Positions 1,891-51,075 of a stretch of 64,000 bases of DNA are shown here, piece after piece; within the stretch, counting starts at the first letter, position 1, and every line of letters begins with the position of its first letter. A program made the translations under genes and the position numbers. This DNA is from Demequinaceae bacterium (GTDB lineage Bacteria; Actinomycetota; Actinomycetes; Actinomycetales; Demequinaceae): the NCBI GenBank assembly GCA_016933155.1, contig JAFGBM010000005.1, positions 1-64,000 on the forward strand. The letters are read 5' to 3'. Under the pieces are notes generated by a model. The model was not told where the DNA came from. It did no database searches and worked only from the letters and a program-made list of their open reading frames with translations.

Positions 1891-1899
1891 GATAGACCC

Positions 1900-2430: not shown

Positions 2431-2456
2431 CGCCGGGCGGGAACTACCGGTAGACT
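2427..2456 (+). promoter_or_regulatory. promoter of the glyA-folD transcript
   Basis: CTGACG (2427-2432) and TAGACT (2451-2456) are separated by 18 bp and fit a sigma-70 -35/-10 pair. Transcription would begin near 2463, exactly where the ZTP aptamer starts. Confidence 0.6.
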
Positions 2457-2461
2457 GGCTC

Positions 2462-2531
2462 CATCGCGACTGGCGTCGTGGGTCACCACAGGGAAGCGAT
2501 GAGATTCGACTGATGGTCGTCCGCCTGGGCC
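2462..2531 (+). promoter_or_regulatory. ZTP (pfl) riboswitch aptamer
   Basis: The conserved elements of the pfl RNA occur in order: CGCGACTGGCG (2465-2475), ACCACAGGGAAGCGATG (2485-2501) and the hallmark CCGCCTGGGC (2521-2530) of the 3' pseudoknot strand. ZTP/ZMP riboswitches sense purine-pathway stalling caused by 10-formyl-THF shortage and usually activate glyA, folD or purH-type genes, which fits the next two genes. Downstream, GGCGGC/GCCGCC (2556-2570) can form a hairpin, and GCCCAG (2568-2573) is complementary to the CTGGGC of the aptamer, giving a plausible expression platform close to the glyA ribosome-binding site. Confidence 0.88.
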
Positions 2532-7374: not shown

Positions 7375-7410
7375 GGGCGGATACTAGCCGACACGCGGCA
7401 CGAAATACAC

Positions 7411-7440
7411 CGTGACCTTTTCGTGACCTTCTGCCATGAT
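7411..7440 (+). promoter_or_regulatory. promoter with a 9-bp direct repeat
   Basis: CGTGACCTT occurs at 7411-7419 and again at 7422-7430, an 11-bp period (one helical turn). The first copy supplies a -35 element (GTGACC 7412-7417), 17 bp from CATGAT (7435-7440). The geometry suits a response regulator dimer; GTGAC-N6-GTGAC resembles sites described for MtrA, which is inference. Confidence 0.5.
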
Positions 7441-7488
7441 GGGGCCGTGCCCCGAAAGACGGGGTTACACGATCAAAGGAGATTTCAC

Positions 7489-7926
7489 ATGGCGAAAGCG
7501 GAGAAGAAGGTTCTTGGCCTTCTCCCCAGGTCTGTTGCCACCACGCTGGTTCTAGGCCTTCTTGCGGCCTTCCTGCTCGCCTGGGCTTGGTCCTATGTCA
7601 TGGCCCAGGGCTTCAGCGACGACGCTTGGGTCCAGATCCTCGAGTGGATCGTTCTCGCGGTCCTCATTGGAGCCGTTGTCGGACTTCTTGCGAACAACGA
7701 CAAGCCCGTGACCCTCTGGATCGCAGCCGGTCTGACGGTCGTTGCCGTTGTGATCACCCAGGCCCTTGAGGGATACGCCGCCTATGGCTTCGACTCGGCG
7801 GTGTTGGCTTCCTTCGGCGAAGAGGCCTTCGGGCTCTCGGTGAAGATCGGGGCTGTCTTGCTCGGCATCATTGCTGCGGCGGCTGCGGCCTCCGCTTCGA
7901 GGTCGAAGGACATGCTCGCCAAGTAG
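7489..7926 (+). CDS. small four-helix membrane protein, unknown function
   Basis: A 145-residue protein beginning MAKAEKKVLGLLPRS, with four predicted helices at about residues 16-37, 50-68, 75-94 and 117-136. A strong AAAGGAG site lies 6 nt before the ATG. Loops are acidic and a lysine-containing tail (SRSKDMLAK) closes the protein. It is followed at once by a strong terminator. It is probably a paralogue of the preceding gene by topology and shared promoter layout; sequence identity between the two proteins is low by eye. Confidence 0.75.
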   Translation: MAKAEKKVLGLLPRSVATTLVLGLLAAFLLAWAWSYVMAQGFSDDAWVQILEWIVLAVLIGAVVGLLANNDKPVTLWIAAGLTVVAVVITQALEGYAAYGFDSAVLASFGEEAFGLSVKIGAVLLGIIAAAAAASASRSKDMLAK

Positions 7927-7942
7927 CCTGTTCGAGTATGAG

Positions 7943-7976
7943 GCGGGGCGTCCGAAAGGGCGCCCCGCTTTCGTTT
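7943..7976 (+). terminator. rho-independent terminator
   Basis: GCGGGGCGTCC and GGGCGCCCCGC form an 11-bp stem with one wobble pair and a GAAA tetraloop, followed by TTTCGTTT. It ends the small membrane protein transcript before the convergent mrp gene. Confidence 0.9.
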
Positions 7977-8015
7977 GCCCTTGGGGTATCCGTGACGCGG
8001 GTGGAAGCGAAACGC

Positions 8016-9137
8016 CTAGGAGGAATCGACCTTGAGGGGCCGCCCGGCGAGCCCCCTCTTCCGGGCGCCGAGGGTCTTGGCGATCCCGGTCAGTGCTATC
8101 GCCGCGGCCGATTCGGGATGCGCGACAACCACGGGCGTCCCGGCGTCCCCCGCCTCCCTCGTCGCGACATCGAGGGGGACCTGGCCGAGGAGGGACACGG
8201 GCATTCCGAGGGCCTCGGAGAGGCGGTCAGCAACCTGGGCCCCGCCCCCGGAGCCGAAGAGCTCCAGGCGCGACCCGTCGGCCTGCTCGAGCCAGGCCAT
8301 GTTCTCGATGACCCCGGCGACCGACTGCTGGGTCTGGAGGGCGATGGCTCCCGCCCGTTCGGCGACTTCGGCTGCGGCGGCCTGAGGCGTGGTGACGACG
8401 ACGATCTCCGAGTGGGGGAGCAGTTGGGCGACGGAAATGGCCACGTCGCCCGTCCCGGGGGGAAGATCGAGGAGGAGCACGTCCAGGTCTCCCCAGAAGA
8501 CGTCGGCGAGGAACTGCTCGATCGCCCGGTGGAGCATCGGCCCCCGCCATACGACCGGCGTCCCCTCGGGGACGAACATCCCGATCGAAACGGCCTTGAC
8601 CCCGTGGGCGACCGGGGGGAGGAGCATCTCGTCGATCCGGGTGGGCTGGGTCGTGGTCCCGAGCATCCGGGGAATGCTGAATCCGAAGATGTCCGCATCG
8701 AGGACCCCGACCTTGAGCCCCTCCCGTGCCATCGCGACAGCCAGGTTGACCGTCACCGTCGACTTGCCCACGCCACCCTTGCCGGAGGCGATGGCGTAGA
8801 CCTTGGTCAAGTTCCCGGGTTGAGTGAAGGGGATGACGGCCTCCGGCTTGCCTCCCCGCAGCTGGCTGCGAAGGGCCTCCCGCTGGTCCTCCGTCATCGC
8901 GCCGAGTTCGACCTCGACGTTGGTCACGCCCTCAACCCCGCCGACCGCTGCTTCGACGTCGGCCTGGATCCTCCCCTTGAGGGGGCAGCCGGCGATGGTG
9001 AGGTCGATTCCGATGACGACCCGTCCGGCGTCGTCGACGGACACGGATCGGACCATTCCGAGTTCGGTTATCGGTCGGTTGATCTCGGGATCGATGACGG
9101 TGGCGAGGGCTTGGCGAATGGCGTCTTCGGTAGGCAT
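8016..9137 (-). CDS. mrp: Mrp/NBP35-family iron-sulfur carrier ATPase
   Basis: Mrp proteins are P-loop ATPases that bind and deliver Fe-S clusters. The N-terminus is a MIP18/DUF59 domain (about residues 1-85, with TIAGCPLK), followed by a ParA-like domain with SGKGGVGKST near residue 121 and a Walker B region LLLDLPPGTGD. Where many homologues carry the cluster-binding CxxC (after ENM), this protein has ENMAWLEQADGSRLELFG with no cysteine. TACTAT lies 7 nt before the ATG, indicating a leaderless start. In mycobacteria mrp lies near the MgtE-N/CBS gene found here 2 kb away. Confidence 0.93.
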   Translation of the reverse strand: MPTEDAIRQALATVIDPEINRPITELGMVRSVSVDDAGRVVIGIDLTIAGCPLKGRIQADVEAAVGGVEGVTNVEVELGAMTEDQREALRSQLRGGKPEAVIPFTQPGNLTKVYAIASGKGGVGKSTVTVNLAVAMAREGLKVGVLDADIFGFSIPRMLGTTTQPTRIDEMLLPPVAHGVKAVSIGMFVPEGTPVVWRGPMLHRAIEQFLADVFWGDLDVLLLDLPPGTGDVAISVAQLLPHSEIVVVTTPQAAAAEVAERAGAIALQTQQSVAGVIENMAWLEQADGSRLELFGSGGGAQVADRLSEALGMPVSLLGQVPLDVATREAGDAGTPVVVAHPESAAAIALTGIAKTLGARKRGLAGRPLKVDSS

Positions 9138-37271: not shown

Positions 37272-38018
37272 CTACTGCCGCGCTACCTCGCCCCATTCGG
37301 TCGCGGTCGCCCGGGTCCCCATCTGCTGATTGTCGACCGCGACCCTCTGGCCGTCGGATAGCCGGATTTCCTCGTCCGCAAGATCGATGAGGGTCTGGTC
37401 GTGGGTGGAGATGATGGCGGTCATGCCCTGTTCGCGGATGACCTGGCTGAGGAGGGCCATGATCGCATTTCCCGTGTCGGCGTCGAGTTGGCCGGTCGGC
37501 TCGTCGGCGATGAGGAGACGCGGATCGTTCGCGAGGGCACGCGCGATCGCCACTCGTTGCTGCTGCCCGCCGCTCAGCTCCGATGGCCTCTGGTTCATGT
37601 GTTTGGCGAGCCCGACCAGGTCAAGGAGCTCCTTGACCCGGCGGTCGCGGACGGAGGTCCGAACTTTCCTGAGACGCATGGGCAGCCCGACGTTCTCGGC
37701 GGCCGAAAGCATCGGCACCAGCCCGAAGGTCTGGAAGACGAAGGAGACCTTGTCTCGGCGGAGGGCGGTGCGTCGACGTTCTCCGAGCTTGGTGACGGTG
37801 ATGTCATCGACGACGATGGTTCCCTCGCTCGGCCGATCGAGGCCGCCGATGCAGTTGAGCATCGTCGTCTTTCCCGATCCCGAACGCCCCACGAGCGCGA
37901 CGAGGCGACCGCGGGGGATGACGAAACTGACGTCGTTGAGGGCGGTGACACGGGCGTGGCCGACACCGTAGTGCTTGGTAACGTGGTCGGCGACGACCAT
38001 CGGAGTGACGTCGGTCAT
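37272..38018 (-). CDS. ABC transporter ATPase (LolD/MacB type)
   Basis: A 248-residue ATPase with GRSGSGKTT (Walker A), the Q loop at FVFQTFGLVPML, LSGGQQQRVAIARAL (signature), LLIADEPTGQLD (Walker B) and ISTHD (H loop). Family members drive FtsX-type permeases in lipoprotein/peptide export or mechanical signalling rather than classical import. It is the last gene of a four-gene operon; its ATG overlaps the stop of the preceding ATPase as ATGA. Confidence 0.93.
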   Translation of the reverse strand: MTDVTPMVVADHVTKHYGVGHARVTALNDVSFVIPRGRLVALVGRSGSGKTTMLNCIGGLDRPSEGTIVVDDITVTKLGERRRTALRRDKVSFVFQTFGLVPMLSAAENVGLPMRLRKVRTSVRDRRVKELLDLVGLAKHMNQRPSELSGGQQQRVAIARALANDPRLLIADEPTGQLDADTGNAIMALLSQVIREQGMTAIISTHDQTLIDLADEEIRLSDGQRVAVDNQQMGTRATATEWGEVARQ

Positions 38019-39247
38019 TGTTCCCCTCCTTCATCGGGGGTGCCCTTGGGGCGGGAGGCGGTTGGCGGCGGAACTCGTGGGGTGTAGGGGTTGGCACCTT
38101 CGGGGGCTTCGGCCTCGTGGGCCATGCCGGCGAGAGGATGTCCGGCGGATGCCTGTTGCTCGGGGGAGGGTCTCTCAGGTGCGGCCTGGAAGTGGAGATG
38201 GGGGGCATCCGAGGGGGCGGGGAAGGCCGGGGAGCCGTCAGTTGTGGGTGGGGCGGGGGGACGGACGATCGGCGGAGGATTGGCGGCCTCGACGGGGTTG
38301 GGCTGCGGGATCGCGGTCGGGTGGGGCTTCGGGCGGTGAGGGGTCCCGTCGGCCCATACCCCGATGTGATCGGGCTCGAGTTCGAGCCGGACCCTGTCCT
38401 TGAGTCCCAGGGTCTTCCGATACTCCTTCGGGAGCTGCATCCGACCCGCGCGGTCGAGCACCGCATACTCTTCGGCGATGACCTCCGTCACGCCCTCCGC
38501 GGTGATGCGGGTCCGGCGGACGACCTCGGAGGAGGTGCGTCCGTCCCGGATGGCGACGGTGCGCTGAACCTGACCCGATACGGTCGAGTCATGGGTGACG
38601 ACGACGACGGCGGCGCCGAGGTCTCGATTGGCGGCTCGGAGGGCTTCGAAGACGTCGTCCCCCGTCGCCGAGTCGAGTTCCCCCGTCGGTTCATCGGCGA
38701 AGAGGACCTGGGGTCGGTTGGCCAGGGCGACGGCGATGGCGACACGTTGTTGTTCTCCTCCGGACAACTGGCCGGGCCGACGGTTGGCCATGTGGCCCAT
38801 GTTCATGGCGTCGAGCAACTCGTTCGCCCGCTTGCGCCTGGTGGTGGAGCCGATGCCTGCGAAGGCCATGGGGAGCATGACGTTCTCGCGAGCGTTGAGG
38901 TAGGGCAGGAGATTCCTGCCGGTCTGCTGCCAGACGAAGCCCACGACCGTGCGCCGGTAGGTGAGGCGATCGGCGTGGGACATCCTGAGCAGGTCCCATC
39001 CGGCGACCCGGGCCGCCCCTGCAGTCGGCACGTCGAGCCCCGAGAGCACATTCAGGAGGGTGCTCTTCCCGGATCCGGACTGGCCGACGATCGCGACCAT
39101 CTCGCCGGCCTCGACCAGCAGGTCGAGGCCCTGAAGGGCCTGGACCTCGATGTTCTCGACCTGGTAGATGCGGACCAGGTTGTCGCAGACGATCAGCGCA
39201 TCGGCGCCGTATTCGACGGTGGGCGCGGTGAGTGTCTCGGTCATCAT
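38015..39247 (-). CDS. ABC transporter ATPase with AbrB-like domain and Pro-rich tail
   Basis: Residues 1-240 form a MacB-type ATPase (GQSGSGKST, LSGGEQQRVAIAVAL, VLFADEPTGELD, VVTHD). About residues 255-295 form a swapped-hairpin AbrB/SpoVT-like segment (EYAVLDRAGRMQLPKEYRKTLG, then LKDRVRLELEPDHIGVW). The last ~110 residues are Pro-rich and probably disordered. The AbrB-like domain usually binds DNA or mediates dimerisation; its role on an ATPase is unknown. Two consecutive ATGs start the gene just after the permease stop, overlapping an AAGGGGG site. Confidence 0.88.
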   Translation of the reverse strand: MMTETLTAPTVEYGADALIVCDNLVRIYQVENIEVQALQGLDLLVEAGEMVAIVGQSGSGKSTLLNVLSGLDVPTAGAARVAGWDLLRMSHADRLTYRRTVVGFVWQQTGRNLLPYLNARENVMLPMAFAGIGSTTRRKRANELLDAMNMGHMANRRPGQLSGGEQQRVAIAVALANRPQVLFADEPTGELDSATGDDVFEALRAANRDLGAAVVVVTHDSTVSGQVQRTVAIRDGRTSSEVVRRTRITAEGVTEVIAEEYAVLDRAGRMQLPKEYRKTLGLKDRVRLELEPDHIGVWADGTPHRPKPHPTAIPQPNPVEAANPPPIVRPPAPPTTDGSPAFPAPSDAPHLHFQAAPERPSPEQQASAGHPLAGMAHEAEAPEGANPYTPRVPPPTASRPKGTPDEGGEQ

Positions 39248-39253
39248 TCCCCC

Positions 39254-42130
39254 TTAGCGGGTGTCTCCTAGACGTAGGACTTCGGACAGTTTGTCCCGGC
39301 GATGCGCGGCGACCTCTGCGGCAACGGCGGTGAACAGCAGGGCCAGGACACCGGTCGCCACAGCTAGGAGGAAACCGGTATCGGCCTGGAGCGGTGGGGT
39401 CGAAACGCCCCCGGCGAGGATCTCGAGTCCCAGGGTTTCCCCCAGAAGGACGAGGATGGCCAGGCCGGCTGCCGTCCCCCCTGCGACGGCGGCAAGGGCG
39501 AGGGGCGCGAGTTCTGTGAGCGCGAGCCACCATCCGTATCGACTCGACATGCCCTGGGTCCTGAACATCGACAGCGCGAGACCGCGCTGCCGAACCCCTT
39601 CCAGGACGGTGACGAGGAGGCCGATGGCGGCGAGGATCCCCACCGTGACGACCGCCGTCGCCATGACGAGCGCGACTCCGCCGATCAAGGCGGAATCGCG
39701 GACGCCCTCCAGCCAGCCCGCCCTGGAGCTCACGCTCGAGGGATCGATTCCCAGGGCGAGGACGGCCTCCTCGGCCCCGTCGCCGGCGACGAACGTCAGG
39801 TTGTATTCGATGGGGGCGTCATGCTCACGGGCAAGAAGGGCATCGACGGGCAGGATGAGGAAGGGGCCCTCCGCCCAGCCGTTCGGCACGGACACGGCAT
39901 CTCCGATGACGGTGAAGTCGTTGTAGTGGGAGCCGATGTACACCTCACGGGTATCGGTGAAATCGAAGACGCGGTACGACGCGCTGAGGAGGGCGGGGAG
40001 GTCGTCCCCCGGGCTAGTGTCCTCTCCGGCCTCGATGAGGGCCCGGAGGTCATCCGGAACGACAAGCCCGATCGATTCGATCATCTCGACATAGTCCTCG
40101 TCGACCGCGAGAACATGCACCCTGGTGTTCGTTTGGCCGATGCCGACGCTGATGAACGGCATGGAGACGATACGGGAGACCGTCAATCCGTCAGCCTCAA
40201 GGGAGGCCACCGCGGTGTCGTCGAGGCCGGACTCGATCCGGACCTCCCCTCCCACTCTTTCCCATGAGGCTTGATCCTGCCCGTTTCGAATGGTCGATAC
40301 CAGGAGGCCTCCCGAGACGGCGATGGAGACGGCTAGGGAGAGGCTCAGGAGGGGAAGGGCGGCGATCCTTCCACGGGCCTTCGCCAAGGTGATGATTCCC
40401 GCCACGCCACGGGTGCGCTTGGCAAGAACCTGGACGAGAGCCATGGGAATGGGGTACAGGCGCAGCACGATGACAGTGACACCCAAGGCGAGGAGGATGG
40501 GCGCGGCCGCGAGGAACGGATCGACCCCGGAGGTCCGCATCTGAAGGACCCCGCGACCCCGGAGGGTGACGACGGAGGCGATGGCGAGGACGACGGCCAG
40601 GGTTTCCAGTGTCAGACGCTTGGCGGCCTTGGCTCGGGCGATCCTCGCCCGATCCCGCCTGTTTGCGGGGATCCGTCGGCTCGTCCACAGCCTCCTGGCC
40701 GTGATGACGCCGAGAATCGGCAGGGCGGTGGAAGACACCAGCACGACGAGGATGAGCAGACCCGCCCCGAAGGACGAGCCTCCGGTGATGGCAGCCGCCC
40801 CGACGTAGCCCACGGTCACGCCCACGACGGTGAAGGCTACGGACTCGATCGCGAGGCGGCCTGCGATGGAGGCCACGGAGGCCCCCCTCGCGCGTTCGAG
40901 CGCGATGTCGGATTCTCGCCTGCTCAGCAGCAACCGCGCCATGAGCGCGACGACGACCGCGGCCACCGCAATCACCCCGGCCACGGTGACGGACATCTGG
41001 GCCAGGGCAGCCTTGGCGCGGTACGGATAGGCCTCGAGTGCGGGACCGAGCCCCGACGTCATCTGCACCGAGACGTCGGGTGCAGGGATGATCGTGTTGG
41101 CCGTGCCTTCGAGTGTTTTCAGGGTCGATGCGATGTCTTTGGCGCCCTGAAGGGTCAAGCCCTCGGAGCCGACATGGAGGATGACCGTTCCGTCGAAGGG
41201 CTGCTCGAAGCCGCTCGCCAGGGCGCTCGCGGTCGAGGTGCTGACCACGATCGTGCCACGCCGGTATACCGGACGCCCGGGTGTGTCGATGGTCAGGCCC
41301 TGAAGGGCCTCGGGCATGGACGCCCAGGCGGGATCGCCGGGGTTGGATGCCTCGACGATGCCGACGATGAGGATGTACACCCTGCTTTGCGCGATGTTCT
41401 GGACCTGGAGGACCGATCCGAGTTCGACCTCGAGGGCGGAGGCGACGCTCTCGGTGATCGCGACCTCGATGATCTCGTAGTCCGAGCCCGTGCCGGGGTA
41501 TTGATTCTCGCCTGGAGTATTCGATTCGCTCGGAGCCGTGGCGTCCACGGGGAGCCGCCCCTCGACGAGGGTCCATTCCACGTCGTTCGACATTGCGAAT
41601 TGCACCACCGTGCTCAATCGCGAGTCCCACAGTTCGGGATGGTCTGACGGCTTGATCGCCTCGTAGTCATGAGTGTCGACGTCCTGACCGGGTTCGATCA
41701 CGCTGACGACGCTCTGCTGCCGCGAAAGGACGTATCCGGTGTAGCCCTCGACGATCGGCGAGATCACCCCGGGAAGGTTCCTGGATGCCCCCTCCGCGTA
41801 GCCGGCAAAACCCTCGGGAGAGGTCCCCCGGATGGAGTTGACGTTGTCCCCCGTGACATTGCCGACAGGGAAGGTGACAACGATGTCCGCGTCGTCGCCG
41901 ATGGCATCGATCGCGTCCCTCGCACCATCATCGAGGGTGTCGAGGACGAGTCGAGGTCCCGCGAGGGCGAGCATGGAGGCAAGGGCGACGATGACGATCG
42001 AGGCGACGAGCGGTCCACGGTCTCGCCAAGCCCGGCGACGAACGAGCAGGAGGGACGAACCGAGAAGACGGGCTCCGCCTCGCGGACCCTGGGGGGCCGC
42101 GGGGGTGACGTCGATGGTCTCGATGATCAC
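39254..42130 (-). CDS. FtsX/MacB-like ABC permease (second)
   Basis: The 958-residue permease has an N-terminal helix (LVASIVIVALASMLALAG), a large extracytoplasmic domain, a cluster of helices (SVTVAGVIAVAAVVVALMARLL, FGAGLLILVVLVSSTALPIL and others), a second extracellular domain, and a final FtsX-like helix bundle (ALIGGVALVMATAVVTVGIL to LLAVATGVLALLFTAVAAEV). The duplicated-core design matches actinobacterial efflux permeases. Its GTG start lies one base after the stop of the upstream permease, so the two are tightly coupled. Confidence 0.88.
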   Translation of the reverse strand: MIIETIDVTPAAPQGPRGGARLLGSSLLLVRRRAWRDRGPLVASIVIVALASMLALAGPRLVLDTLDDGARDAIDAIGDDADIVVTFPVGNVTGDNVNSIRGTSPEGFAGYAEGASRNLPGVISPIVEGYTGYVLSRQQSVVSVIEPGQDVDTHDYEAIKPSDHPELWDSRLSTVVQFAMSNDVEWTLVEGRLPVDATAPSESNTPGENQYPGTGSDYEIIEVAITESVASALEVELGSVLQVQNIAQSRVYILIVGIVEASNPGDPAWASMPEALQGLTIDTPGRPVYRRGTIVVSTSTASALASGFEQPFDGTVILHVGSEGLTLQGAKDIASTLKTLEGTANTIIPAPDVSVQMTSGLGPALEAYPYRAKAALAQMSVTVAGVIAVAAVVVALMARLLLSRRESDIALERARGASVASIAGRLAIESVAFTVVGVTVGYVGAAAITGGSSFGAGLLILVVLVSSTALPILGVITARRLWTSRRIPANRRDRARIARAKAAKRLTLETLAVVLAIASVVTLRGRGVLQMRTSGVDPFLAAAPILLALGVTVIVLRLYPIPMALVQVLAKRTRGVAGIITLAKARGRIAALPLLSLSLAVSIAVSGGLLVSTIRNGQDQASWERVGGEVRIESGLDDTAVASLEADGLTVSRIVSMPFISVGIGQTNTRVHVLAVDEDYVEMIESIGLVVPDDLRALIEAGEDTSPGDDLPALLSASYRVFDFTDTREVYIGSHYNDFTVIGDAVSVPNGWAEGPFLILPVDALLAREHDAPIEYNLTFVAGDGAEEAVLALGIDPSSVSSRAGWLEGVRDSALIGGVALVMATAVVTVGILAAIGLLVTVLEGVRQRGLALSMFRTQGMSSRYGWWLALTELAPLALAAVAGGTAAGLAILVLLGETLGLEILAGGVSTPPLQADTGFLLAVATGVLALLFTAVAAEVAAHRRDKLSEVLRLGDTR

Positions 42131-42131
42131 G

Positions 42132-45100
42132 TCAGCCCTCCACCCTGAGGAGGGCCGCCGGATTGATCCGACGGACGAGGAGGGAAACCAGGAACACGAC
42201 GATGGCCAGCACGGCGGCGACCTCGGCGGCCAGGAGCCCGATGTTCCCCCAGGGGATGTCGACGATCACCCCGGGGACGGGGGGACGGCCATCGGGCCCG
42301 ACGGAGATGAGGGGCGCGACCAGGTAGCCGAGTGCGATGCCGAGGACCAGTCCGAAGAAGGTCCCGAGGATGGCGAGGAGGAGGCTCTCAGCAGACACCA
42401 GCCGGGTGAGAGCGCTTCTGGCCAAGCCGACGGCCCGGAGTTGGGCGAATTCCAGTTCCCGGGCCCTGACCGTGACGACGGTGTGGACGGCGAAGCCCAG
42501 GGCCGCGAGGACGATCGCGGCCGCCGTGACGAGCCACAGGGCGGCCTGGATCCCCACTCGCAGGGGATCGTCTTGGAGGCTGTGGACGGTGTCCAACCGG
42601 GTCGACGTCGTGGCATCCAGGGGAAGGGCATCCAGATATCGTGCCGTGTTCTCTTGGGGCACATCCGTCCACCAGCCCGTCACGCCGGGAGAGGGCGCCC
42701 CTCCCTGCATAAGCATGATCTGGAGGTCATCATAATTCGCCACGAGGGTGGGATTCCTGGGGGATCCGCCCGGCATCAACGGGACGGAGCCGACGAAGTG
42801 GACCGTGAAGACGGCGTTGTTGATCTCGACGGTGGCACGATCGCCGACGCTCAGACCCAATTGGGTGAGGACGGCTTGGTTCGCCACGACGGGGAGTTCC
42901 GCGACGAAGGGGAAGGCCCCCTGGGATATCGAAATCGTCCTGCTGAACAGCGTGGTCGACGGCACTTCCATCTGGATGTGAACCTGGTCTCCCTTGGTGT
43001 TCAGCGACGGTCCGATGACCCCCTCGGCCCGTCCGTACCATGAGACGTCCGCGGGGATCTCGGCGGCCACAGCGTCGTATTGGGGTTGGACCCCGGGCAC
43101 GGGGACGGGGGGTTGGGCGATGAGGGACGACACCCCGTCGATGGACAGTTCGAGTTCGAGTTCGCCTTCCCTGGCGATCTCGCCGCGGTCATTCTCGACG
43201 CCTGGAGAGATGAACCACAGGGTCTGCAGGCCGACGATCGAGGACGACGAGGCGAGAGTGACGCCAGTTGGCAGCATCGCCTGGATCGTGCGTTCCTCTC
43301 CGTCTATGGGGAGGGTTCCCCCGTCGAGGCTCGTGAAGGTCCCGTTTGAGTCTCGAACGAGCAGGCGGAGCCTCACCACCAGGCCGGCGAGGTCGGTTTC
43401 CGATGAGGTCAGGGTGAGGGTGAACTGGACCCCGTCGGGGTCACCGGGCAGGGGGATGCCCACCGTCTCCGTCGTGTCGCCCTTCGTGAGGGCCTCCGCG
43501 ATCGTCGAGCCTCCCTCCGATCCGACTCGTCCGTCGGTGTAGGCGGTGAGCCCGTCGTCCGTCGTGGCCACGAGGTGGACGGAGCGTCCGTTGATCCCCT
43601 GACCGGACCGACCCTCTTGAAGCGAGGTCGTCATCTCCCCGTCCCGCTCGAAGACCGGTGCCGCCGCCGCCCCAAGTTGGGCATTGTTCACCGCGGCGTA
43701 CTGTTCGAGGGGGTCCATATCGAGGTCGGAGACCTCGACATCGGCGGGGTGGAGGAAGCTCGCTTGGTCCTCCTGGGAGGTTCTCCAGGTGGTGAGGAAC
43801 GACATGGAGAATGACCCGACCGAAACGGCAAGCGTGAGAAGGAGGATCGCGGAGACGGCTCGCGCCGAGCGTCGGCCGACCTCCCACGCCGCGAGCGGCC
43901 CAACCGCATGCCGGCCCCGGGACGCTATCCCTTCAAGGAATTTCGAGGCCGCAGGGATGAGGCGCATACAGACGAGGGCCCCGGCAAGCAGGGCGAGGGC
44001 GGGGCCGGAAGCGAGCACGGGATCGACGCGGGCGACGCCGCCCGTGGTCATGATGGGGGATTGGTATCCCCGAAGCTGAAGGTACGCCAGGACGGCGAGG
44101 GCGACGAGGGCGAAGTCGAGGCCGGAGCGCTGGAGGGAGGTCGCTCGGCTCGGGCGGGAGCGGGCCTGCTCACCCTCGACGAAGGTGACCCCGCGCTTCA
44201 AGAGGGGCGCCACCAGGATGATGAGGAGGGCGACGCCGACGACCCCTGAGACGATCCACACCGATGAGGGCAGGCCGGGGTCCCTGTCCATCCCCGCCGA
44301 CTTCATGGGGCCGACTCCGGCAATCAAGCGGTACGCCCTATTGGCGAGCAGGGGGCCCGCGACCGTCGTGAGGGTGGACAGGACGACAGCCTCGATCACG
44401 CCGAGGCGGAACAACTGCCGACCCGAGGCCCCGCGCGCGGTCATGAGGTGCTGTTCGGCGTGGCGTCGTTCCGCCATCAGGCGTGACGTCTGTCCAAGGG
44501 CTGCGATCGCGAGAACGAGCAGCAGGAGCCCGGTGACCAAGACGCTCGACCGGGTGACGGCGAGGGAGCCGAGCACCTTGCCCAGAGTGGAGTCGGATTG
44601 GGTGAAGACGTCCACCGTGCTGGCTTTGGCTCCGACGGCGATCGTCGTGGACAAGTCGATGTCCTCCACCCCGTCGATGATGTCGCCCACGTCCACAAGG
44701 GTCGCCTCGGAGAAGTCCGGGAGGTAGTCGACGGTCAGCGTGGAGACGTCGAGGCCGTCGATGACGTCTCTCGTGATGAACAGGGGGCCGAACCCATCGG
44801 CCGTCAGCCGCCCGCCGCTCAAGGGAACGGCAAAGTCGGGCACGTAGCCCAGGCCGTTGTTGGGATCGAAACGCCAGAAGTCGGCCTCGGGGTCCCGGGC
44901 CTGATAGGCCCCCACGATCTCAAGGGTCAGCGCGTCTGCCCGTCGGCCGTAGGGGAAGACCTCCACCTCGTCTCCGATCGCGAGGGAGAGATCCTCCAGA
45001 AGGTCGATGGGGATCGAGGCCTCGATCGTCGATCCTGGAATGTCGGCCGGCCAGCGGCCCTCGCTGAGGACGGCGTTCTCCTCGACCCCGTCCTGGTACA

Positions 45101-45455
45101 CGAAGTACCCGAGGGCGAGAGGTCTGTCCTCTCGAGGGATGCCGAGGACCTTTCCCTGAATGCGGATCTGAGTCTCGAATGGCACGTCTCCGAAGAATTC
45201 TTCTGCCGCGGACGCGGAGCCCGAGATGATCTCCTCGGGGCTGGCGTTGGGCGAAAACGAGTGGGTCACCCGGATGTCGGCGTCCGGGGCGTTCGTCAAC
45301 GCTTCTCGGGCGGCGAACCGTTCCGTCGCGGAACTGAGGAGGAAGAGGCTGGAGAGCATGGTCGACGACAGGACCGACACGAGAAGGACGATGCTGAGCA
45401 GGGCCCACTGAACACGGGACCTTCGCACGGTGAGCCGGATCCGCCACGGCCTCAC
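42132..45455 (-). CDS. FtsX/MacB-like ABC permease (first)
   Basis: The 1107-residue protein has an N-terminal helix (WALLSIVLLVSVLSSTMLSSLFLL), a large outer domain, helices around GLLLLVLAIAALGQTSRLM and IVSGVVGVALLIILVAPLLK, a second outer domain and a C-terminal bundle (LWLVTAAAIVLAALGFAVHTV, LLLAILGTFFGLVLGIALGYL, LLAAEVAAVLAIVVFLVSLL). It probably pairs with the next permease as a heterodimer. The GTG start is preceded by GGAAGGA. A direct-repeat operator lies about 110 bp upstream. Confidence 0.88.
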   Translation of the reverse strand: MRPWRIRLTVRRSRVQWALLSIVLLVSVLSSTMLSSLFLLSSATERFAAREALTNAPDADIRVTHSFSPNASPEEIISGSASAAEEFFGDVPFETQIRIQGKVLGIPREDRPLALGYFVYQDGVEENAVLSEGRWPADIPGSTIEASIPIDLLEDLSLAIGDEVEVFPYGRRADALTLEIVGAYQARDPEADFWRFDPNNGLGYVPDFAVPLSGGRLTADGFGPLFITRDVIDGLDVSTLTVDYLPDFSEATLVDVGDIIDGVEDIDLSTTIAVGAKASTVDVFTQSDSTLGKVLGSLAVTRSSVLVTGLLLLVLAIAALGQTSRLMAERRHAEQHLMTARGASGRQLFRLGVIEAVVLSTLTTVAGPLLANRAYRLIAGVGPMKSAGMDRDPGLPSSVWIVSGVVGVALLIILVAPLLKRGVTFVEGEQARSRPSRATSLQRSGLDFALVALAVLAYLQLRGYQSPIMTTGGVARVDPVLASGPALALLAGALVCMRLIPAASKFLEGIASRGRHAVGPLAAWEVGRRSARAVSAILLLTLAVSVGSFSMSFLTTWRTSQEDQASFLHPADVEVSDLDMDPLEQYAAVNNAQLGAAAAPVFERDGEMTTSLQEGRSGQGINGRSVHLVATTDDGLTAYTDGRVGSEGGSTIAEALTKGDTTETVGIPLPGDPDGVQFTLTLTSSETDLAGLVVRLRLLVRDSNGTFTSLDGGTLPIDGEERTIQAMLPTGVTLASSSSIVGLQTLWFISPGVENDRGEIAREGELELELSIDGVSSLIAQPPVPVPGVQPQYDAVAAEIPADVSWYGRAEGVIGPSLNTKGDQVHIQMEVPSTTLFSRTISISQGAFPFVAELPVVANQAVLTQLGLSVGDRATVEINNAVFTVHFVGSVPLMPGGSPRNPTLVANYDDLQIMLMQGGAPSPGVTGWWTDVPQENTARYLDALPLDATTSTRLDTVHSLQDDPLRVGIQAALWLVTAAAIVLAALGFAVHTVVTVRARELEFAQLRAVGLARSALTRLVSAESLLLAILGTFFGLVLGIALGYLVAPLISVGPDGRPPVPGVIVDIPWGNIGLLAAEVAAVLAIVVFLVSLLVRRINPAALLRVEG

Positions 45456-45561
45456 GGGTTTTCCTTCCGCTCAGGGGAGATGCAGACCCGCCTGTCGTGG
45501 GTCCGTGCCATCCTCCCACGGTGGCAGGACCCGGCGGTACTCGGAACCAAGACGCCAGAGG

Positions 45562-45578
45562 GTTACCGAATCGTTACC
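45562..45578 (-). promoter_or_regulatory. direct-repeat operator upstream of the ABC operon
   Basis: On the minus strand GGTAAC occurs twice with an 11-bp period (GGTAACGATTCGGTAAC). The GTAAC-N6-GTAAC layout fits a response-regulator dimer and resembles MtrA-type sites; the factor assignment is inference. It sits between DUF2505 and the first permease, upstream of the operon. Confidence 0.45.
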
Positions 45579-45602
45579 AGGCCGGGTGGAGGCGGGCCGC
45601 CT

Positions 45603-46112
45603 TCAGGCCCTGGCGAGCCAGGCATCGGCTGCGACGAGTTCCTTCTCGATGGCCTCGGCGAGGGAGTCGATGATCGCCTGGGTGACCAGACCCGCAAGGA
45701 AGGGCATGTGAACCGAGACGGTTCCCCTGAGGGTGAGTTCCGTACTGTCCCCTCGGGCGGCGAGGCGGATGGTCCCGGCCGCTCGCGCGGGGACCCCCAC
45801 GATGTCGATGGCGAAGGTCCCCTCGCGGACGCCCTCACCGGGGGGTTCCCACGCCTCCGAGTACCTGACGGTGACGGACGAACCCAGGAAGGGCCGGAAC
45901 TCCGGTTGGAGGCCGTCCGTTGCCATGGTCCGGCGGATCGCTACAGTGAAGGCCGTCCCGGCGTCCCCGTCGACTATCGCGTCGCATTCGGATGCCCCGA
46001 CGGCGAGGCCCCGTTCGTGGGCGAAATCCGCGTTCGCATACATGGCGGCGACCCGCTCGATCGGCGCATCGAAGGCATGATCGGCGACGAGGTCGGCCTT
46101 TCCTTCTGGCAT
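45603..46112 (-). CDS. DUF2505 family protein (START-like fold)
   Basis: The 169-residue protein matches the actinobacterial DUF2505 family, with an N-terminal FDAPIERVAAMYAN helix-strand segment, VAIRRTM, VRYSEAWE and a closing amphipathic helix (IIDSLAEAIEKELVAADAWL). The fold is of the SRPBCC/START type that binds hydrophobic ligands; no ligand is known. TATTCT lies 7 nt before the ATG, suggesting a leaderless start. It is divergent from pdtaS with a 42-bp gap. Confidence 0.85.
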   Translation of the reverse strand: MPEGKADLVADHAFDAPIERVAAMYANADFAHERGLAVGASECDAIVDGDAGTAFTVAIRRTMATDGLQPEFRPFLGSSVTVRYSEAWEPPGEGVREGTFAIDIVGVPARAAGTIRLAARGDSTELTLRGTVSVHMPFLAGLVTQAIIDSLAEAIEKELVAADAWLARA

Positions 46113-46154: not shown

Positions 46155-47597
46155 ATGGCGACCTTGCGGGAGCGGGCGGAACGCCACGGCCCGATGTCGG
46201 ACGCTGAGGCGGAGTGGCTGACGCTTCTCGCCTCCGATTGGCAGATCATCGCCGACCTCTCTTTCGCCGACCTCGTCATGTGGCGTCGGGTGGAGGCCGG
46301 CTTCGTCGCCATCGCCCAATGCCGACCCCAGACAGGGCCGACCGTGCATCAGGACGATGTCGTCGGGGCCTTCGCCCCTGCGGGTAAGGTCGCCACCCTT
46401 CAGCGGGCCCTCGACGAGATGACTCTGGTGGCGACCCGAGAGCCCCGGTGGGACGAGCACTACGCGGTCAGGGAGGATGCCCTTCCCGTCGTCATGGACG
46501 GGGTGGCCATCGCACTTCTGACCCGAGAGGTATCTCAAGCCGTCTCCCGGAGTTCGAGCCGACTCGAGCTCAACCACAAGGGTGCTGCGGAGGACATCAT
46601 CGGGATGATCATCCGGGGGGAGTTCCCGATGCTCACCTCGGTCCAGGGTCCCAGGAGGGGGGCTCCGCGCGTCGGGGACGGGATCATCCGGCTCGACGAC
46701 CAGGGCCATGTCACCTATGCCAGTCCGAACGCCCTCTCGTGCTTCCATCGCCTGGGGGTCACGGGGACGATCGTCGGCCGATCATTGCCCCGCATCACCA
46801 GCGAGGTCATTTCCAACAAGGGGACCATCGATGAGACCTTGGCCATGGTGGTCATGGGCAGGGCGGCCTGGCGGACCGACCTCGAGGCAAATGGGGGATG
46901 CCTCTCCCTCCGGGCGATACCGACCCTCGTCAAGGGGGTGAGGACGGGGGCCCTGCTCCTGGTTCGTGACGTCTCGGAACTCCGTCGTCGGGAAAGGGAG
47001 CTCATCACCAAGGACGCGACCATCAGGGAGATCCATCATCGGGTCAAGAACAACCTTCAGACGGTGGCGGCCCTGCTCCGGCTTCAGAGTCGGCGGCTCG
47101 AGGCCCCGGAGGCCAAGGCCGCGCTCGCGGAGGCCATGCGCCGGGTGTCGACGATCGCGCTTGTTCACGAGACCCTGTCCGGCACCCTGGATGAGCTCGT
47201 GAACTTCGATGATCTCGTGGTCAGGAGCGTTCGGATGATCGCGGATGTCGCTACGGCCGACGTGAGGGTCAAGATCGTTCGGGAGGGAGACTTCGGCCTC
47301 ATCCCGGCCTCGGTGGCGTCTTCGCTCGCCCTAGTGGTGACGGAACTGGTCACCAATGCGGTCGAGCACGGCTTCACGGGCAGATCGAGCGGGACGGTGA
47401 CCATCAGGGCGGAACGAGACGGTGAGGCCCTTCACGCCGTCATCGCGGATGACGGGGTGGGGATTCGATCCAAGCCATCCGGCTTGGGGGCACAGATCGT
47501 GACGACCCTCATCGAGAACGAACTCGGCGGGCAACTGGAGTGGCGATCCGTGGACCAGGGTAGCGAGGTCGACATCCGGATCAATGTCCGCATCTAG
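46155..47597 (+). CDS. pdtaS: PdtaS-type soluble histidine kinase
   Basis: The 480-residue cytosolic sensor has an N-terminal GAF-like domain (about residues 10-150), a PAS domain (GIIRLDDQGHVTYASPNALS), a HisKA_2 dimerisation domain with REIHHRVKNNLQTV (His294/His295, the latter the likely phosphoacceptor) and an HATPase_c domain (ELVTNAVEHGF, ADDGVGI, GLGAQIVTTLI). PdtaS signals to the antiterminator PdtaR, which is not in this window. TAGTCT lies 6 nt before the ATG, indicating a leaderless start. The pairing with whiB1 is conserved in mycobacteria. Confidence 0.94.
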   Translation: MATLRERAERHGPMSDAEAEWLTLLASDWQIIADLSFADLVMWRRVEAGFVAIAQCRPQTGPTVHQDDVVGAFAPAGKVATLQRALDEMTLVATREPRWDEHYAVREDALPVVMDGVAIALLTREVSQAVSRSSSRLELNHKGAAEDIIGMIIRGEFPMLTSVQGPRRGAPRVGDGIIRLDDQGHVTYASPNALSCFHRLGVTGTIVGRSLPRITSEVISNKGTIDETLAMVVMGRAAWRTDLEANGGCLSLRAIPTLVKGVRTGALLLVRDVSELRRRERELITKDATIREIHHRVKNNLQTVAALLRLQSRRLEAPEAKAALAEAMRRVSTIALVHETLSGTLDELVNFDDLVVRSVRMIADVATADVRVKIVREGDFGLIPASVASSLALVVTELVTNAVEHGFTGRSSGTVTIRAERDGEALHAVIADDGVGIRSKPSGLGAQIVTTLIENELGGQLEWRSVDQGSEVDIRINVRI

Positions 47598-47614: not shown

Positions 47615-47869
47615 TTACTTGGCGGCGCGTCGGGCTCGGGCGGCCCGGCGCTTGAGCGAGCGGCGCTCGTCCTCGGACAGGCCCCCCCACACCCCGGAAT
47701 CCTGGTTGTGCTCCATAGCCCAGACCAGGCAGACCTCACGAACCGTGCAAGACGAACAGACGGCACGGGCACGCTCGAGTTGTTCGAGCGCCGGTCCGGT
47801 GTTGCCGATCGGGAAGAACAGCTCCGGGTCGTCAACATCTAGGCATGCAGCGCGATCGCGCCATTCCAT
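47615..47869 (-). CDS. whiB1: WhiB1-type Fe-S transcriptional regulator
   Basis: An 84-residue WhiB protein. The four cluster ligands are Cys9, Cys37, Cys40 and Cys46 (RAACLD; VCSSCTVREVC), followed by the GVWGGLSEDERR turn and a basic KRRAARARRAAK tail for DNA binding. Length and context opposite pdtaS indicate WhiB1, an essential NO-sensing regulator in mycobacteria that binds sigma-A region 4. AAGGAG lies 6 nt before the ATG, so unlike many genes here it has a leader. Confidence 0.94.
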   Translation of the reverse strand: MEWRDRAACLDVDDPELFFPIGNTGPALEQLERARAVCSSCTVREVCLVWAMEHNQDSGVWGGLSEDERRSLKRRAARARRAAK

Positions 47870-48003
47870 GGTGTACTCCTTGATTGCAGGTTTGAGGACG
47901 GTCTCACCATTGAGGGAGAGGTGTGGAGACATGCTCTCAAACCTCGATTTCCCAGGTTCTCATGGTTATCGAGAGATGACAAGGGTCTTTCGTAACGTTT
48001 TGA

Positions 48004-51000
48004 TCAAGGGCTGTCGTGGGCACCAGGGGCTTCCACGAGTTGGGCGGCGAGGGCCGATCCGTCCCTGATGACGAGGACCCGGCGGATCGGGGGCCTGGGG
48101 TCGATGAGGCCGTCCAACTCCCCCCGATAGCACTCACGGGCGAGGCGTTCCGTCGGCTCGGCCATGATGATCGTGCCCTCGTCGCGAAAGCCCCGGGCTC
48201 TCGCCAGGGGGCTCTCGATGGACTCGAGGTCGAGGGAGAGTCCCTCACGCGAAGCGCAGGCTCGAAGGGAGGCCTCGACCGCCTCCCTGGTCGGCCCTGG
48301 CGGGGACACAAGGAGGACGGGGCGCGAAGGGTCGACCGCGAGGGGACCCGCACGGTCGCCTCCTACCCCGATCACGAGGCCGTCTCCTCGGGGGAGGTCG
48401 GCGGGATTGACCCGAAGGGGAAGGGGATTCACGAGCGGCTCGTCGAGCCTGGCCGACTCTCGACCGACCTGGATTTCACACCAGCGGCCCTCGGCGCCGA
48501 AGCGGGCACGACCGGGAAGAGGAGCGAGGCCGTGGAGCTCCCTGGGCATGGGCCATGCCGCATCGTCGATGGCGTCGCCCCCGGCGAAGACGAGGAACGC
48601 GACCGCGTGGGACGCCAGCCGCTGGGCGCCTGCCTTGGGAAGGGCGACGGCGAGCGGGGCGCCGGAATAGGCGAGAGCGATCAGATGGTCGACCGGGGCA
48701 CCGCGGTCGACGTCCGCCAGAAGCGTCAGCGCCCTCTGGGCGTCGTCGACCAGCAGGAGGGCGTTCGGGGTGCGAGGGCAGAGCAGGATTGTTCGGGCGG
48801 CCTCCCGGGGGTCCGAGGGAAGCCACACGGGTCGGAAGCCCTCCGAACGAGCCTGGGCGGCGATCAGCTTGAGGGCCGTCGTACGACCAGATCGGGGCGG
48901 ACCGGTGATGAGGAGGAGTCCTGAACGGGGATCCCAGCGCACATCCGGCTGTCGGCGTTCCGACGGGACGTCGCCTCGGCCCAGCCACAGGCCAGGCGGG
49001 CGGTTCGAGGTCTCGACCGTAGGGTTGGCGGCTTCACCGAGATCGTGGGGAAGGGGGTCGAGCCATAGGGGGGCGGCCCTCGCATGGCCAGACCAGCGCC
49101 GTATCGCCGAGGCGGCCATGTCACGGGCCGCGACGGACAGGTCGTCCTCCTCGCCCCAGCATCGGATCCTCGGGGTGGGAACGACACAGGGCAGGGCGAC
49201 CTGAAGGGTGGTTCGCTGGGTGCCGGTCACGGCCATGGCTCGCCCGGGGACGTCGGCGGGGAATTCGGCGACATCGGATGTTCCGACGAGGTCGCGGGAT
49301 TCGGAGTCCGTCACGACTCGAAGCGCGAAGGTCGTCCCCATGTTCGCCCGGATTTCGGGCGTGACTGCACCGGCGGGGCGTTGGGTCGCCAGGATCAGGT
49401 GGAGCCCGAGGGAACGCCCCTGGGCTGCGAGGCGGGCGAGGTCCGGCAGGAAGTCCCGATACTGCGCCGCGACCTCCTGGTACTCGTCGGCGACGACGAG
49501 CAACCGGGGAGGCGCCCCGCCTGAGGTCTCCCACTCCCGGAAGGACGACAGGCCCTTCTCGGCGAGCGCGCCCTTGCGATCGGACAGCTCGCGGGACAGG
49601 GCTTTGAGGGCGCGCCGGGCGAGGTGGGGATCGAGGTCCGTGAGAAGACCCCTGACGTGGGGAAGGTCGGCACAGGTCCGGACGCCCGCTCCCCCTTTGA
49701 AGTCGATGAGGGCGACGCCGAGGTCATCGGGCGAATGCCGGAGGGTCAGGCCGAGGATGAGCGTCTCGAGAAGGGCGGACTTGCCCGATCCCGTGGTTCC
49801 GGCGACGAGGACGTGAGGTCCGTGCGCGTCCAGGTCGAGGACATAGGGGCCGGAGGCCGTCATCCCGAGGGGCACACGTAGCGTGCGGTTTTGCTCGGGG
49901 CTCGCAGGGGGGGACGCCACATCCGCCCAGCGGACCCTTCGAGGGAGGCTCCCTCTCCCGGATGCCCCGGCCAGGGATCGAGCAAGGGCCTCGGCCTCGG
50001 CCTCGGCCAATCCCAAGGGCGGCAGGCGAGAGACCTTTCCCTTGAGCCACAGGATCCCGCCATCTGACCGGATCTCCGCCCTGGCGTCGCACCACGAGGG
50101 CGCGGGCCCCTCGATGACGAACGCCACCTCCAGGCCTCCTGGGGGGGCATCGGGAAGCCAATCCATCCAGGGCTCGTGCCAGCCGTCCGCCCGGAGCCGG
50201 AAGCCGAGAGTCAAGGCGAGGGCACGGGCGAACGCCCGGGCCGGTTCGGGCCGTCCAAGGACGGCGATACTCCGAGGGGGGTCGGTCGACCAGGCACGAC
50301 GGGATGTCGACAGGAGCGAGGGAAGGGCCGCGAGGTCCCAAGGGAGGCGACGTCTGCGCGGTCGGATGAGCCCGAGGGAGTGGGCAAGGTAGGCGGGATA
50401 GGCCAAGCCGAGGGCTGCGAGATACCACCGTCCCGTCATGGCCGCGACCATGATCCCGCTGATGACGGAGCCCGCGAGGGGGGCCAGCCGGGAGGCGGGA
50501 TCCGATGCTTGAGGGGTAGGGTCGATGGTCGGGCAAGGCTCGACCGCCTCCGTCCCATCATCGTCGAGAACCGCGACGAGGGACGAGCCCACGGACAGGA
50601 TGTCCCCTCCCTTGAGTTCCCGGGATCGTCCGATCGCATGGGGCGACCCCCCTCGCCACACCGTCGTCCCATTGCACGAACCGAGGTCGGACACGGCAAG
50701 GGCGGGGCCCGCCTGGACGGCTGCGTGGGTCCGTGAGACGGCTGGGTCCGCGAGGGATAGGTCTGCCCCCTCTCCTCGCCCGACGATGGTTCCCTTCGGC
50801 CCGACGAAGGCCCGTCTTCCGGATTGGGGGCCCGCGATGACGAGGAGGGTGCGTCCCCTCGGAGGCGCGCAGGGCAGGCCCGGGTCAGGGGTGAGTCGTG
50901 CCCCCTCAAGCAGGGGCCACGTCCCGGCGGAGTGGCGAGGGTCGAGGGCGATATCCCCGCACCAGACCGAGGAACCCAAGGGCACCCCGAGGGACCGGGC

Positions 51001-51075
51001 AGCCGCCGCAATCTCCAGCACGCTCGTGCCAGTGGCCACCGCAAGGTCCAGGTCGTCTCCGATGGTGATCTTCAC
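48004..51075 (-). CDS. orphan EssC/EccC-like FHA-FtsK/SpoIIIE ATPase
   Basis: The 1023-residue protein has a ubiquitin-like N-terminus, an FHA domain (GTIVGRGEGADLSLADPAVSRTHAAV, here cited in parts: GRGEGADL, SRTH, NGTTV), two helices near residues 195-235, and three ATPase modules. The first is canonical (AGTTGSGKSALLETLI near residue 428; LLVVADEYQE). The second keeps GPPRSGRTT and LLLVDDAQ. The third lacks a P-loop Lys (VSPPGPTREAV). This is the type VII secretion motor architecture, yet no WXG100, EccB, EccD, EccE or mycosin is nearby. CACGAT lies 6 nt before the GTG. Confidence 0.85.
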   Translation of the reverse strand: MKITIGDDLDLAVATGTSVLEIAAAARSLGVPLGSSVWCGDIALDPRHSAGTWPLLEGARLTPDPGLPCAPPRGRTLLVIAGPQSGRRAFVGPKGTIVGRGEGADLSLADPAVSRTHAAVQAGPALAVSDLGSCNGTTVWRGGSPHAIGRSRELKGGDILSVGSSLVAVLDDDGTEAVEPCPTIDPTPQASDPASRLAPLAGSVISGIMVAAMTGRWYLAALGLAYPAYLAHSLGLIRPRRRRLPWDLAALPSLLSTSRRAWSTDPPRSIAVLGRPEPARAFARALALTLGFRLRADGWHEPWMDWLPDAPPGGLEVAFVIEGPAPSWCDARAEIRSDGGILWLKGKVSRLPPLGLAEAEAEALARSLAGASGRGSLPRRVRWADVASPPASPEQNRTLRVPLGMTASGPYVLDLDAHGPHVLVAGTTGSGKSALLETLILGLTLRHSPDDLGVALIDFKGGAGVRTCADLPHVRGLLTDLDPHLARRALKALSRELSDRKGALAEKGLSSFREWETSGGAPPRLLVVADEYQEVAAQYRDFLPDLARLAAQGRSLGLHLILATQRPAGAVTPEIRANMGTTFALRVVTDSESRDLVGTSDVAEFPADVPGRAMAVTGTQRTTLQVALPCVVPTPRIRCWGEEDDLSVAARDMAASAIRRWSGHARAAPLWLDPLPHDLGEAANPTVETSNRPPGLWLGRGDVPSERRQPDVRWDPRSGLLLITGPPRSGRTTALKLIAAQARSEGFRPVWLPSDPREAARTILLCPRTPNALLLVDDAQRALTLLADVDRGAPVDHLIALAYSGAPLAVALPKAGAQRLASHAVAFLVFAGGDAIDDAAWPMPRELHGLAPLPGRARFGAEGRWCEIQVGRESARLDEPLVNPLPLRVNPADLPRGDGLVIGVGGDRAGPLAVDPSRPVLLVSPPGPTREAVEASLRACASREGLSLDLESIESPLARARGFRDEGTIIMAEPTERLARECYRGELDGLIDPRPPIRRVLVIRDGSALAAQLVEAPGAHDSP

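Follow-up and report, generated by a model that had tools for sequence, protein, structure and literature searches.

The stretch of DNA analysed here (the window) comprises 64,000 nucleotides from a Demequinaceae bacterium with a genome of 1.89 Mb in 15 contigs. On its minus strand, from 45455 to 37272, four genes form a tight run in the order permease 2, permease 1, ATPase A and ATPase B, and the stop codon of ATPase A overlaps the start of ATPase B by 4 nt (ATGA). The genes and the parts of ATPase A are the following.

42132-45455, minus strand: permease 2, 1107 aa, FtsX-type (Pfam FtsX and hydropathy; 9 hydrophobic segments)
39254-42130, minus strand: permease 1, 958 aa, FtsX-type (Pfam FtsX and hydropathy; 10 hydrophobic segments)
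38015-39247, minus strand: ATPase A, a 410-aa LolD/MacB-type ABC ATPase with an AbrB/MraZ-like domain and a Pro-rich tail
38540-39196, minus strand: ABC ATPase core of ATPase A, residues ~18-236 (Pfam, NCBIfam, AF2, VIA)
38474-38539, minus strand: linker, a long beta-hairpin region joining core to domain, residues ~237-258 (AF2 strands)
38348-38473, minus strand: AbrB/MraZ-superfamily domain (EEYAVLDRAGRMQLPKEYRKTLGLKDRVRLELEPDHIGVWAD), residues ~259-300, assigned by profile comparison, shuffles and conservation
38018-38347, minus strand: Pro/Ala-rich tail, residues ~301-410 (composition, tail lengths of relatives)
37272-38018, minus strand: ATPase B, a 248-aa partner ABC ATPase without the AbrB/MraZ-like domain

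Considering the FtsX matches and the number of hydrophobic segments, each of the permeases may be a double-length unit. The core of ATPase A is of the LolD/MacB class and stands beside FtsX permeases. Pfam ABC_tran matches a complete core (residues 38-188, 1e-32), and the motifs can be recognized by eye: Walker A (GQSGSGKST), the signature (LSGGEQQ), Walker B with the D-loop (FADEPTGELD) and the H-loop (THD). LolD and MacB provide the best NCBIfam rows, with TIGR02211 (LolD) at 4.4e-64 and 216 bits, below its equivalog cut-off of 307.75 bits, and MJ0796 and MacB are the top structural rows in VIA (Z 29). In the full-length AF2 model (pLDDT 88 overall) the blocks over residues 11-260 reach 85-98, and the linker is predicted to form strands 237-248 and 254-263. 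Among the best 80 of 168 relatives, the closest named ones are an actinobacterial MAG and Demequina. The system is like the LolD/MacB/FtsE type ABC ATPases (type VII systems) in its ATPase core and in the FtsX-type permeases alongside. However, LolD and FtsE end after the ATPase core, whereas ATPase A has an extra C-terminal domain and its permeases comprise 958 and 1107 residues.

The long Pro-rich tail that the sequence-only reading had described after this extra domain is indeed there, with 29 prolines within residues 306-410. It is not conserved: ~105 residues long here, it ranges from 52 to 148 in four relatives (L018-L021), and the remaining domain-bearing relatives compared have 0-63. 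Some Chloroflexota ATPases (L164, L165) end in long Pro-rich tails of a different sequence. The tail looks like a disordered addition.

Three further proteins were given putative identities by eye: a PdtaS-type sensor histidine kinase of 480 aa near the operon at 46155-47597 (plus strand), a WhiB-type iron-sulphur regulator of 105 aa at 47615-47932 (minus) and a 1023-aa protein with FHA and FtsK/SpoIIIE-type (EccC/EssC-like) ATPase features at 48004-51075 (minus).

Kinship of the C-terminal domain

An AbrB-like segment behind the ATPase core had been proposed from the letters alone for 38340-38500, a span that corresponds to residues ~250-303 and that includes DRAGRMQLPKEYRKTLG (residues 265-281). 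The profile search with the AbrB and MraZ families that had been suggested as a check bore this out: the matches of single sequences were real but remained below threshold, and the comparison of profiles was clear. A 73-aa segment of ATPase A matched TIGR01439 (AbrB) at 2.8e-5 (23.7 bits, cut-off 28.3), MraZ (PF02381) at 0.0017 (18.8 bits, cut-off 23) and MazE (PF04014) at 0.0094 (16.3 bits, cut-off 24.7). A 68-aa segment also stayed below the curated cut-offs, with 18.9/23 bits for PF02381, 16.5/24.7 for PF04014 and 24.0/28.3 for TIGR01439. The domain of the best relative matched MraZ with an E-value of 8.6e-5 and may reach the curated cut-off. When 34 domain sequences, including that of the window, were compared with Pfam at E<=0.05, 22 matched MraZ and 3 MazE; with NCBIfam, 23 of the same set hit a single MraZ model and 3 hit the AbrB model.

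In the profile-profile comparison (hhalign) the ABC-fused domain scored 94.2% against MraZ and 94.1% against MazE/AbrB, where the MraZ and MazE profiles scored 95.5% against each other as a yardstick. TOBE_2 reached 13.6% over 24 columns in this small test, in which single values are noisy (MazE against TOBE_2 gave 54%). After shuffling of the columns none of 100 shuffles scored as high as the real profile, neither against MraZ (38.0, best shuffle 18.6) nor against MazE (35.7, best shuffle 21.5). The real TOBE_2 score of 18.5 also exceeded all of its 100 shuffles (best 14.6), and therefore the shuffles alone are no proof of kinship and it is the size of the gap that counts. A profile search of the PDB sequences yielded 8 matches at E<=1. 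The first four were MraZ proteins (E 0.045-0.16), of which the second half was aligned without gaps, and the other four were three SRP GTPases and one adenylate cyclase.

By these comparisons of sequence, residues ~259-300 of ATPase A are confirmed to represent a genuine AbrB/MraZ-superfamily domain. A chance resemblance is ruled out by the profile comparison together with the column shuffles. A TOBE-like domain is ruled out as well, given the low TOBE_2 value and given that Pfam yielded only MraZ and MazE for the segment alone (E<=1). The domain is thus not an ordinary ATPase regulatory domain devoid of AbrB similarity, as the similarity to AbrB/MraZ is real and that to TOBE_2 is weak. The NIL domain of MetN was absent from the same Pfam rows, and MetN rows are found among the structural matches of ATPase A with an rmsd of 3.3-3.6.

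The likeness to the C-terminal half of MraZ (PF02381) extends over a gapless alignment of 39 columns with 28% identity, and includes the pattern D-x-x-G-R-x-x-x-P as well as a last strand that closes with W. The domain is not MraZ itself, however: MraZ is a stand-alone DNA-binding protein of two halves, whereas the ABC-fused domain is usually one half on an ABC ATPase and has mostly lost the equivalent of R23. Likewise, it matches the profile of the AbrB/MazE/SpoVT family (PF04014, TIGR01439) at 94% over 38 columns, but the ABC-fused domains do not conserve three of the four DNA-binding arginines of AbrB.

The structural models add little to this. In the domain region of the full-length AF2 model, where the pLDDT drops to 64-79, a helix (274-280) and two strands (285-290 and 295-299) are predicted, and the order of the elements (strands 237-248 and 254-263, helix, two strands) is compatible with an AbrB half-barrel. 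Modelled alone as a single chain the domain reached a pLDDT of 72 and a pTM of 0.47. With this model Foldseek gave nothing at E<=0.001, MraZ appearing at rank 5 with E 1.6, and VIA gave three MraZ rows (Z 2.0-2.6) amid unrelated folds of equal Z. Structure searches with a model of such low confidence are uninformative, and so is the absence of AbrB entries beyond MraZ among the matches listed.

The domain is well conserved. The mean column identity in 39 sequences was 0.78 for the domain, 0.74 for the ATPase core and 0.48 for the linker (residues 241-258), where the figure for the domain is biased because the patterns used in the scan for relatives included TEVIAEEY and EPDHIGVW, from linker and domain. 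The positions D265, R269, Q271, L272, P273, V286 and D293 are invariant in all 39, and the EPDHIGVW segment is strongly conserved, with the same search bias. For this set (A1, A2) the best 80 of 168 loci were taken as relatives, of which four without a domain match (L094-L097) were dropped and 76 kept; the 84 sequences that passed formed 40 clusters at 85% identity, L014 was left out and the sequence of the window replaces L001.

Distribution, origin and gene order

A search with the segment gave matches in 15 of 296 Actinomycetota genomes at E<=0.01. Eight of these were strong (E<=2.6e-14), the genome of the window included. The seven weak ones comprised an ABC ATPase (L014), L015, and five matches located in small reading frames (90-161 aa), three of which overlap matches to the MraZ or MazE family. 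The domain profile, at E<=1e-4, had matches in 98 of the 301 genomes sampled around a Chloroflexota centre and in 8 of the 299 sampled around a Bacillota centre, centre genomes included; both phylum names are taken from the named records of these centres. Thirty loci and seven further places were inspected for the Chloroflexota, and all loci opened (30/30 in Chloroflexota, 8/8 in Bacillota) encode ABC ATPases of the ATPase A type. On the basis of these matches the fusion is real and widespread and present in three phyla; an oddity local to the host genome is ruled out by the matches in relatives and in other phyla.

A search with the ATPase core only, free of any bias towards the domain, matched 106 of 246 genomes at E<=1e-50, and the best 30 loci were opened. 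The best seven (E<=2.5e-84) all carry the domain. Of the 23 that follow, 16 lack the domain, three are matched by the domain profile (E<=0.01) and four look degenerate; two of these four have a profile E of 0.17 and 1.3, and the other two were judged by eye only. In a tree of 84 ATPase cores, from which the domain columns were excluded, the 49 rows with a domain or a degenerate form are all set apart by a single branch (SH-aLRT 92) and need one change, or three when the five rows labelled degenerate are left out. The rows of this tree were chosen by hand, the method was quick, the support of 92 was not starred and the branch of L014 is long. Moreover, the labels were given by eye: L107, L108, L110, L112 and L123 count as degenerate, while the equally degenerate L105 and L106 are among the 44 domain rows. 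Within the sampling of this tree, the domain would have been gained once by the ATPase A family.

The degenerate forms at the C-termini of ATPases (L105-L108, L110, L112 and L123; e.g. VVGPTGSLHLP in L105) lack the D and in many cases the R of the GR motif, whereas the proline is retained; in the four copies read by regular expression the D is lost in four and the R in three, and the proline is kept. At the other extreme, two copies of the domain occur in one chain in four proteins (L166, L167, L168 and L169) from three genomes of the Chloroflexota sample, and in 4/4 of these the GR of the second copy corresponds to GL or GM in the first, which thus lacks the arginine. The regular expression used for the reading picked up 7 of 8 copies in the tandem proteins (one misplaced, in L168) and 4 of the 7 degenerate ones. 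MraZ likewise has two halves per chain, and the asymmetry of the tandem copies is reminiscent of the MraZ halves. The tandem copies suggest that a complete barrel matters, whether within or between chains.

The AbrB/MraZ-like domain is usually found beside giant FtsX-type permeases. Considering the loci with upstream room, among which many show <=1.5 kb there, a same-strand FtsX-type permease is present in 36/36 Streptomycetaceae and 30/32 other named records (best 80 of 168 relatives), and in 22/29 loci of the Chloroflexota, 6/8 of the Bacillota and 3/7 of the Actinomycetota sample. The association with a second ATPase is less general. A domain-free ATPase on the same strand adjoins A in 30 of the 32 named-record loci outside the Streptomycetaceae that have downstream room (best 80 of 168 relatives), in 29/30 Chloroflexota and in 6/7 Actinomycetota sample loci. 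It does so in only 1 of the 7 Bacillota loci with downstream room, another locus (L128, no room) having one upstream, and in none of the 39 Streptomycetaceae loci (best 80 of 168 relatives). Because A often stands without an adjacent B, the domain goes with ATPase A and not with the pair. A B-like ATPase of >200 bits anywhere in the locus was found in 1/39 named Streptomycetaceae (L081) and in both loci of genome G023, which we grouped with the Streptomycetaceae (3/41 together). In L007, from G023, the B-like ATPase is close to A but in convergent orientation (1752-2528, minus strand), and in L081, from Streptomyces longisporoflavus, it lies further downstream of A (7408-8988, plus strand). 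These placements suggest rearranged operons.

The DNA-binding surface

The residue register of AbrB used below was set with the AbrB sequence, for which the D-x-x-G-R and P columns served as anchors. According to PMC5222340, the N-terminal domain of AbrB needs R8, R15, R23 and R24 for DNA binding. In the 39 ABC-fused domains these four positions are basic in 0, 39, 4 and 2 sequences, respectively, and the set is thus not kept in the ABC family; the R24 position is acidic in 22/39 and the E12 position is basic in 36/39. In 30 stand-alone MazE/AbrB domains (30/30 loci) the corresponding numbers are 23, 20, 25 and 20. For MraZ they are 0, 29, 26 and 5 in 29 halves, first and second halves mixed, from 29 of 30 loci (L193, with a stop in the match, was left out), and the R24 position is acidic in 19/29. 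Among the wider copies, read by regular expression with one of the 30 Chloroflexota rows oddly placed, none of those from the Chloroflexota is basic at R8 or R23 and all 30 are acidic at R24, and the eight Bacillota copies are basic at R8 in 0, at R23 in 5 and at R24 in 0.

Loss of R8 and R24 is weak evidence, because MraZ, which lacks R8 and mostly R24, has been solved together with its promoter (title of entry 9r4j). The loss of R23 appears a better sign of lost DNA binding, since 26/29 MraZ halves are basic there, yet the residue is kept in 5/8 Bacillota copies. The copy in ATPase A is basic at three of the four AbrB positions (R269, R277 and K278), the most among the 39 sequences. In the relatives the fold's arginine surface of the AbrB type is largely gone, with the ATPase A copy as an exception. 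Net charge was dropped as an argument against DNA binding, as the means for the ABC-fused domain (-0.7), MraZ (+0.1) and MazE (-1.3) do not separate the three sets; another segment had earlier given 0 to -6.

The role of the domain

The best explanation, to which we assign a probability of about 0.58, is that a DNA-binding fold was recruited as a dimerisation or regulatory module on a LolD/MacB-type ATPase. An ATPase of the A family, working with giant FtsX-type permeases, would have acquired an AbrB/MraZ half-barrel at its C-terminus. Two copies of the domain would swap hairpins, a trait of paired half-domains, and so build a single barrel next to the nucleotide-binding sites, and this barrel may keep the two ATPase subunits together or limit their opening and closing. 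It would normally lie between two A subunits, and within one chain in the tandem-copy proteins, as in MraZ. The C-terminal domains of MalK, ModC and MetN do a comparable job with other folds. The TOBE domain of MalK and ModC and the NIL/ACT domain of MetN are likewise attached C-terminally to the ATPase and are able to pair between subunits, a likeness in working; the fold of the former differs from that of the ATPase A domain by the TOBE_2 comparison.

We favour a dimerisation module because of the kinship, the loss of most AbrB contacts, the conservation and the single origin. The loci in which A has no adjacent B (39/39 Streptomycetaceae and 6/7 Bacillota) fit a pair of two A subunits, where B may sit elsewhere in the genome. 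Nevertheless, the tandem copies argue against a clamp that acts strictly between subunits, the weak domain model, the structure searches and the uninformative net charge count against a dimerisation module, and the retention of R269, R277 and K278 counts against a loss of DNA binding in ATPase A itself. Of the two functions offered in the sequence-only reading, dimerisation control fits better and direct transcriptional feedback is unlikely, as most AbrB arginine positions are lost in the family; ATPase A itself, basic at three of the four, may still bind DNA.

A serious rival, with a modest chance of being right, is that the docking partner of the domain is ATPase B, the cytoplasmic loops of the permease or another protein, and not a second copy of itself. 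The frequent adjacency of a domain-bearing A and a domain-free ATPase (29/30 Chloroflexota, 30/32 non-Streptomycetaceae and 6/7 Actinomycetota loci), the 4-nt overlap of A and B in the window and the strong, if search-biased, conservation of EPDHIGVW would all be in line with such a contact. It is at odds with the Streptomycetaceae and Bacillota, where an adjacent same-strand partner occurs in 0/39 and 1/7 loci, and with the dimeric nature of the AbrB fold in the members known so far.

Transcriptional feedback would imply that the domain binds DNA and that the ATPase, tethered to the membrane, regulates its own operon or others, which we consider improbable. The kinship with AbrB/MraZ is real, the R15 position is kept in 39/39 copies, the E12 position is basic in 36/39 and ATPase A holds three of the four basic positions. 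On the other hand, the R8 position is basic in 0/39, 0/30 and 0/8 of the copies from the three sets, the R24 position is mostly acidic, most copies from Actinomycetota and Chloroflexota have lost R23, and an ATPase bound to the membrane would need access to the DNA. The operator of the MraZ type is a TGGG triple repeat, and AbrB-type sites are degenerate. With one mismatch allowed no such triple repeat was found in the 64-kb window (0.78 expected by chance), and there were no repeats of at least 10 bases in 45440-45640, upstream of the operon; considering the degeneracy of AbrB sites this is weak evidence against feedback. In a variant limited to the lineage of the window, which we regard as highly improbable, the domain would still bind DNA and the ATPase would double as a transcription factor, an ATP-driven rearrangement of the dimer being read at the promoter. 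If DNA binding were true, a transporter would be wired directly to transcription.

That the domain is a passive remnant of an old fusion with little function left is very doubtful: there are degenerate versions in distant relatives, and 16 of the best 30 core matches lack the domain, but in column identity it is on a par with the catalytic core, seven of its positions are invariant in 39 sequences and it is kept in three phyla.

A few folds are known to serve as C-terminal dimerisation and regulatory domains on ABC ATPases. If the dimerisation reading is true, ATPase A and its relatives provide a clear case of a regulator fold recruited for mechanics in FtsX-type machines of three phyla, and the domain offers a single deletable module for probing the control of ATPase pairing. 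For annotation it implies the caution that domain-bearing ABC ATPases should not be called regulators. In the literature searched, by titles and opening lines of abstracts, there was no description of an AbrB/MraZ-ABC ATPase fusion; databases may already list the architecture. The systems SCO3110-3111 and SCO3089-3090 of Streptomyces coelicolor, bacitracin-related ABC systems (PMC3123327), were considered as possible orthologues and set aside, as orthology could not be shown.

As to MraZ proper, G023 and G031 are the only two of 41 sampled genomes without an MraZ match (E<=1e-6), and both carry the fused ATPase, a pattern too small to mean anything; the host genome has the fused ATPase as well as MraZ, the separate match to which lies on C13.
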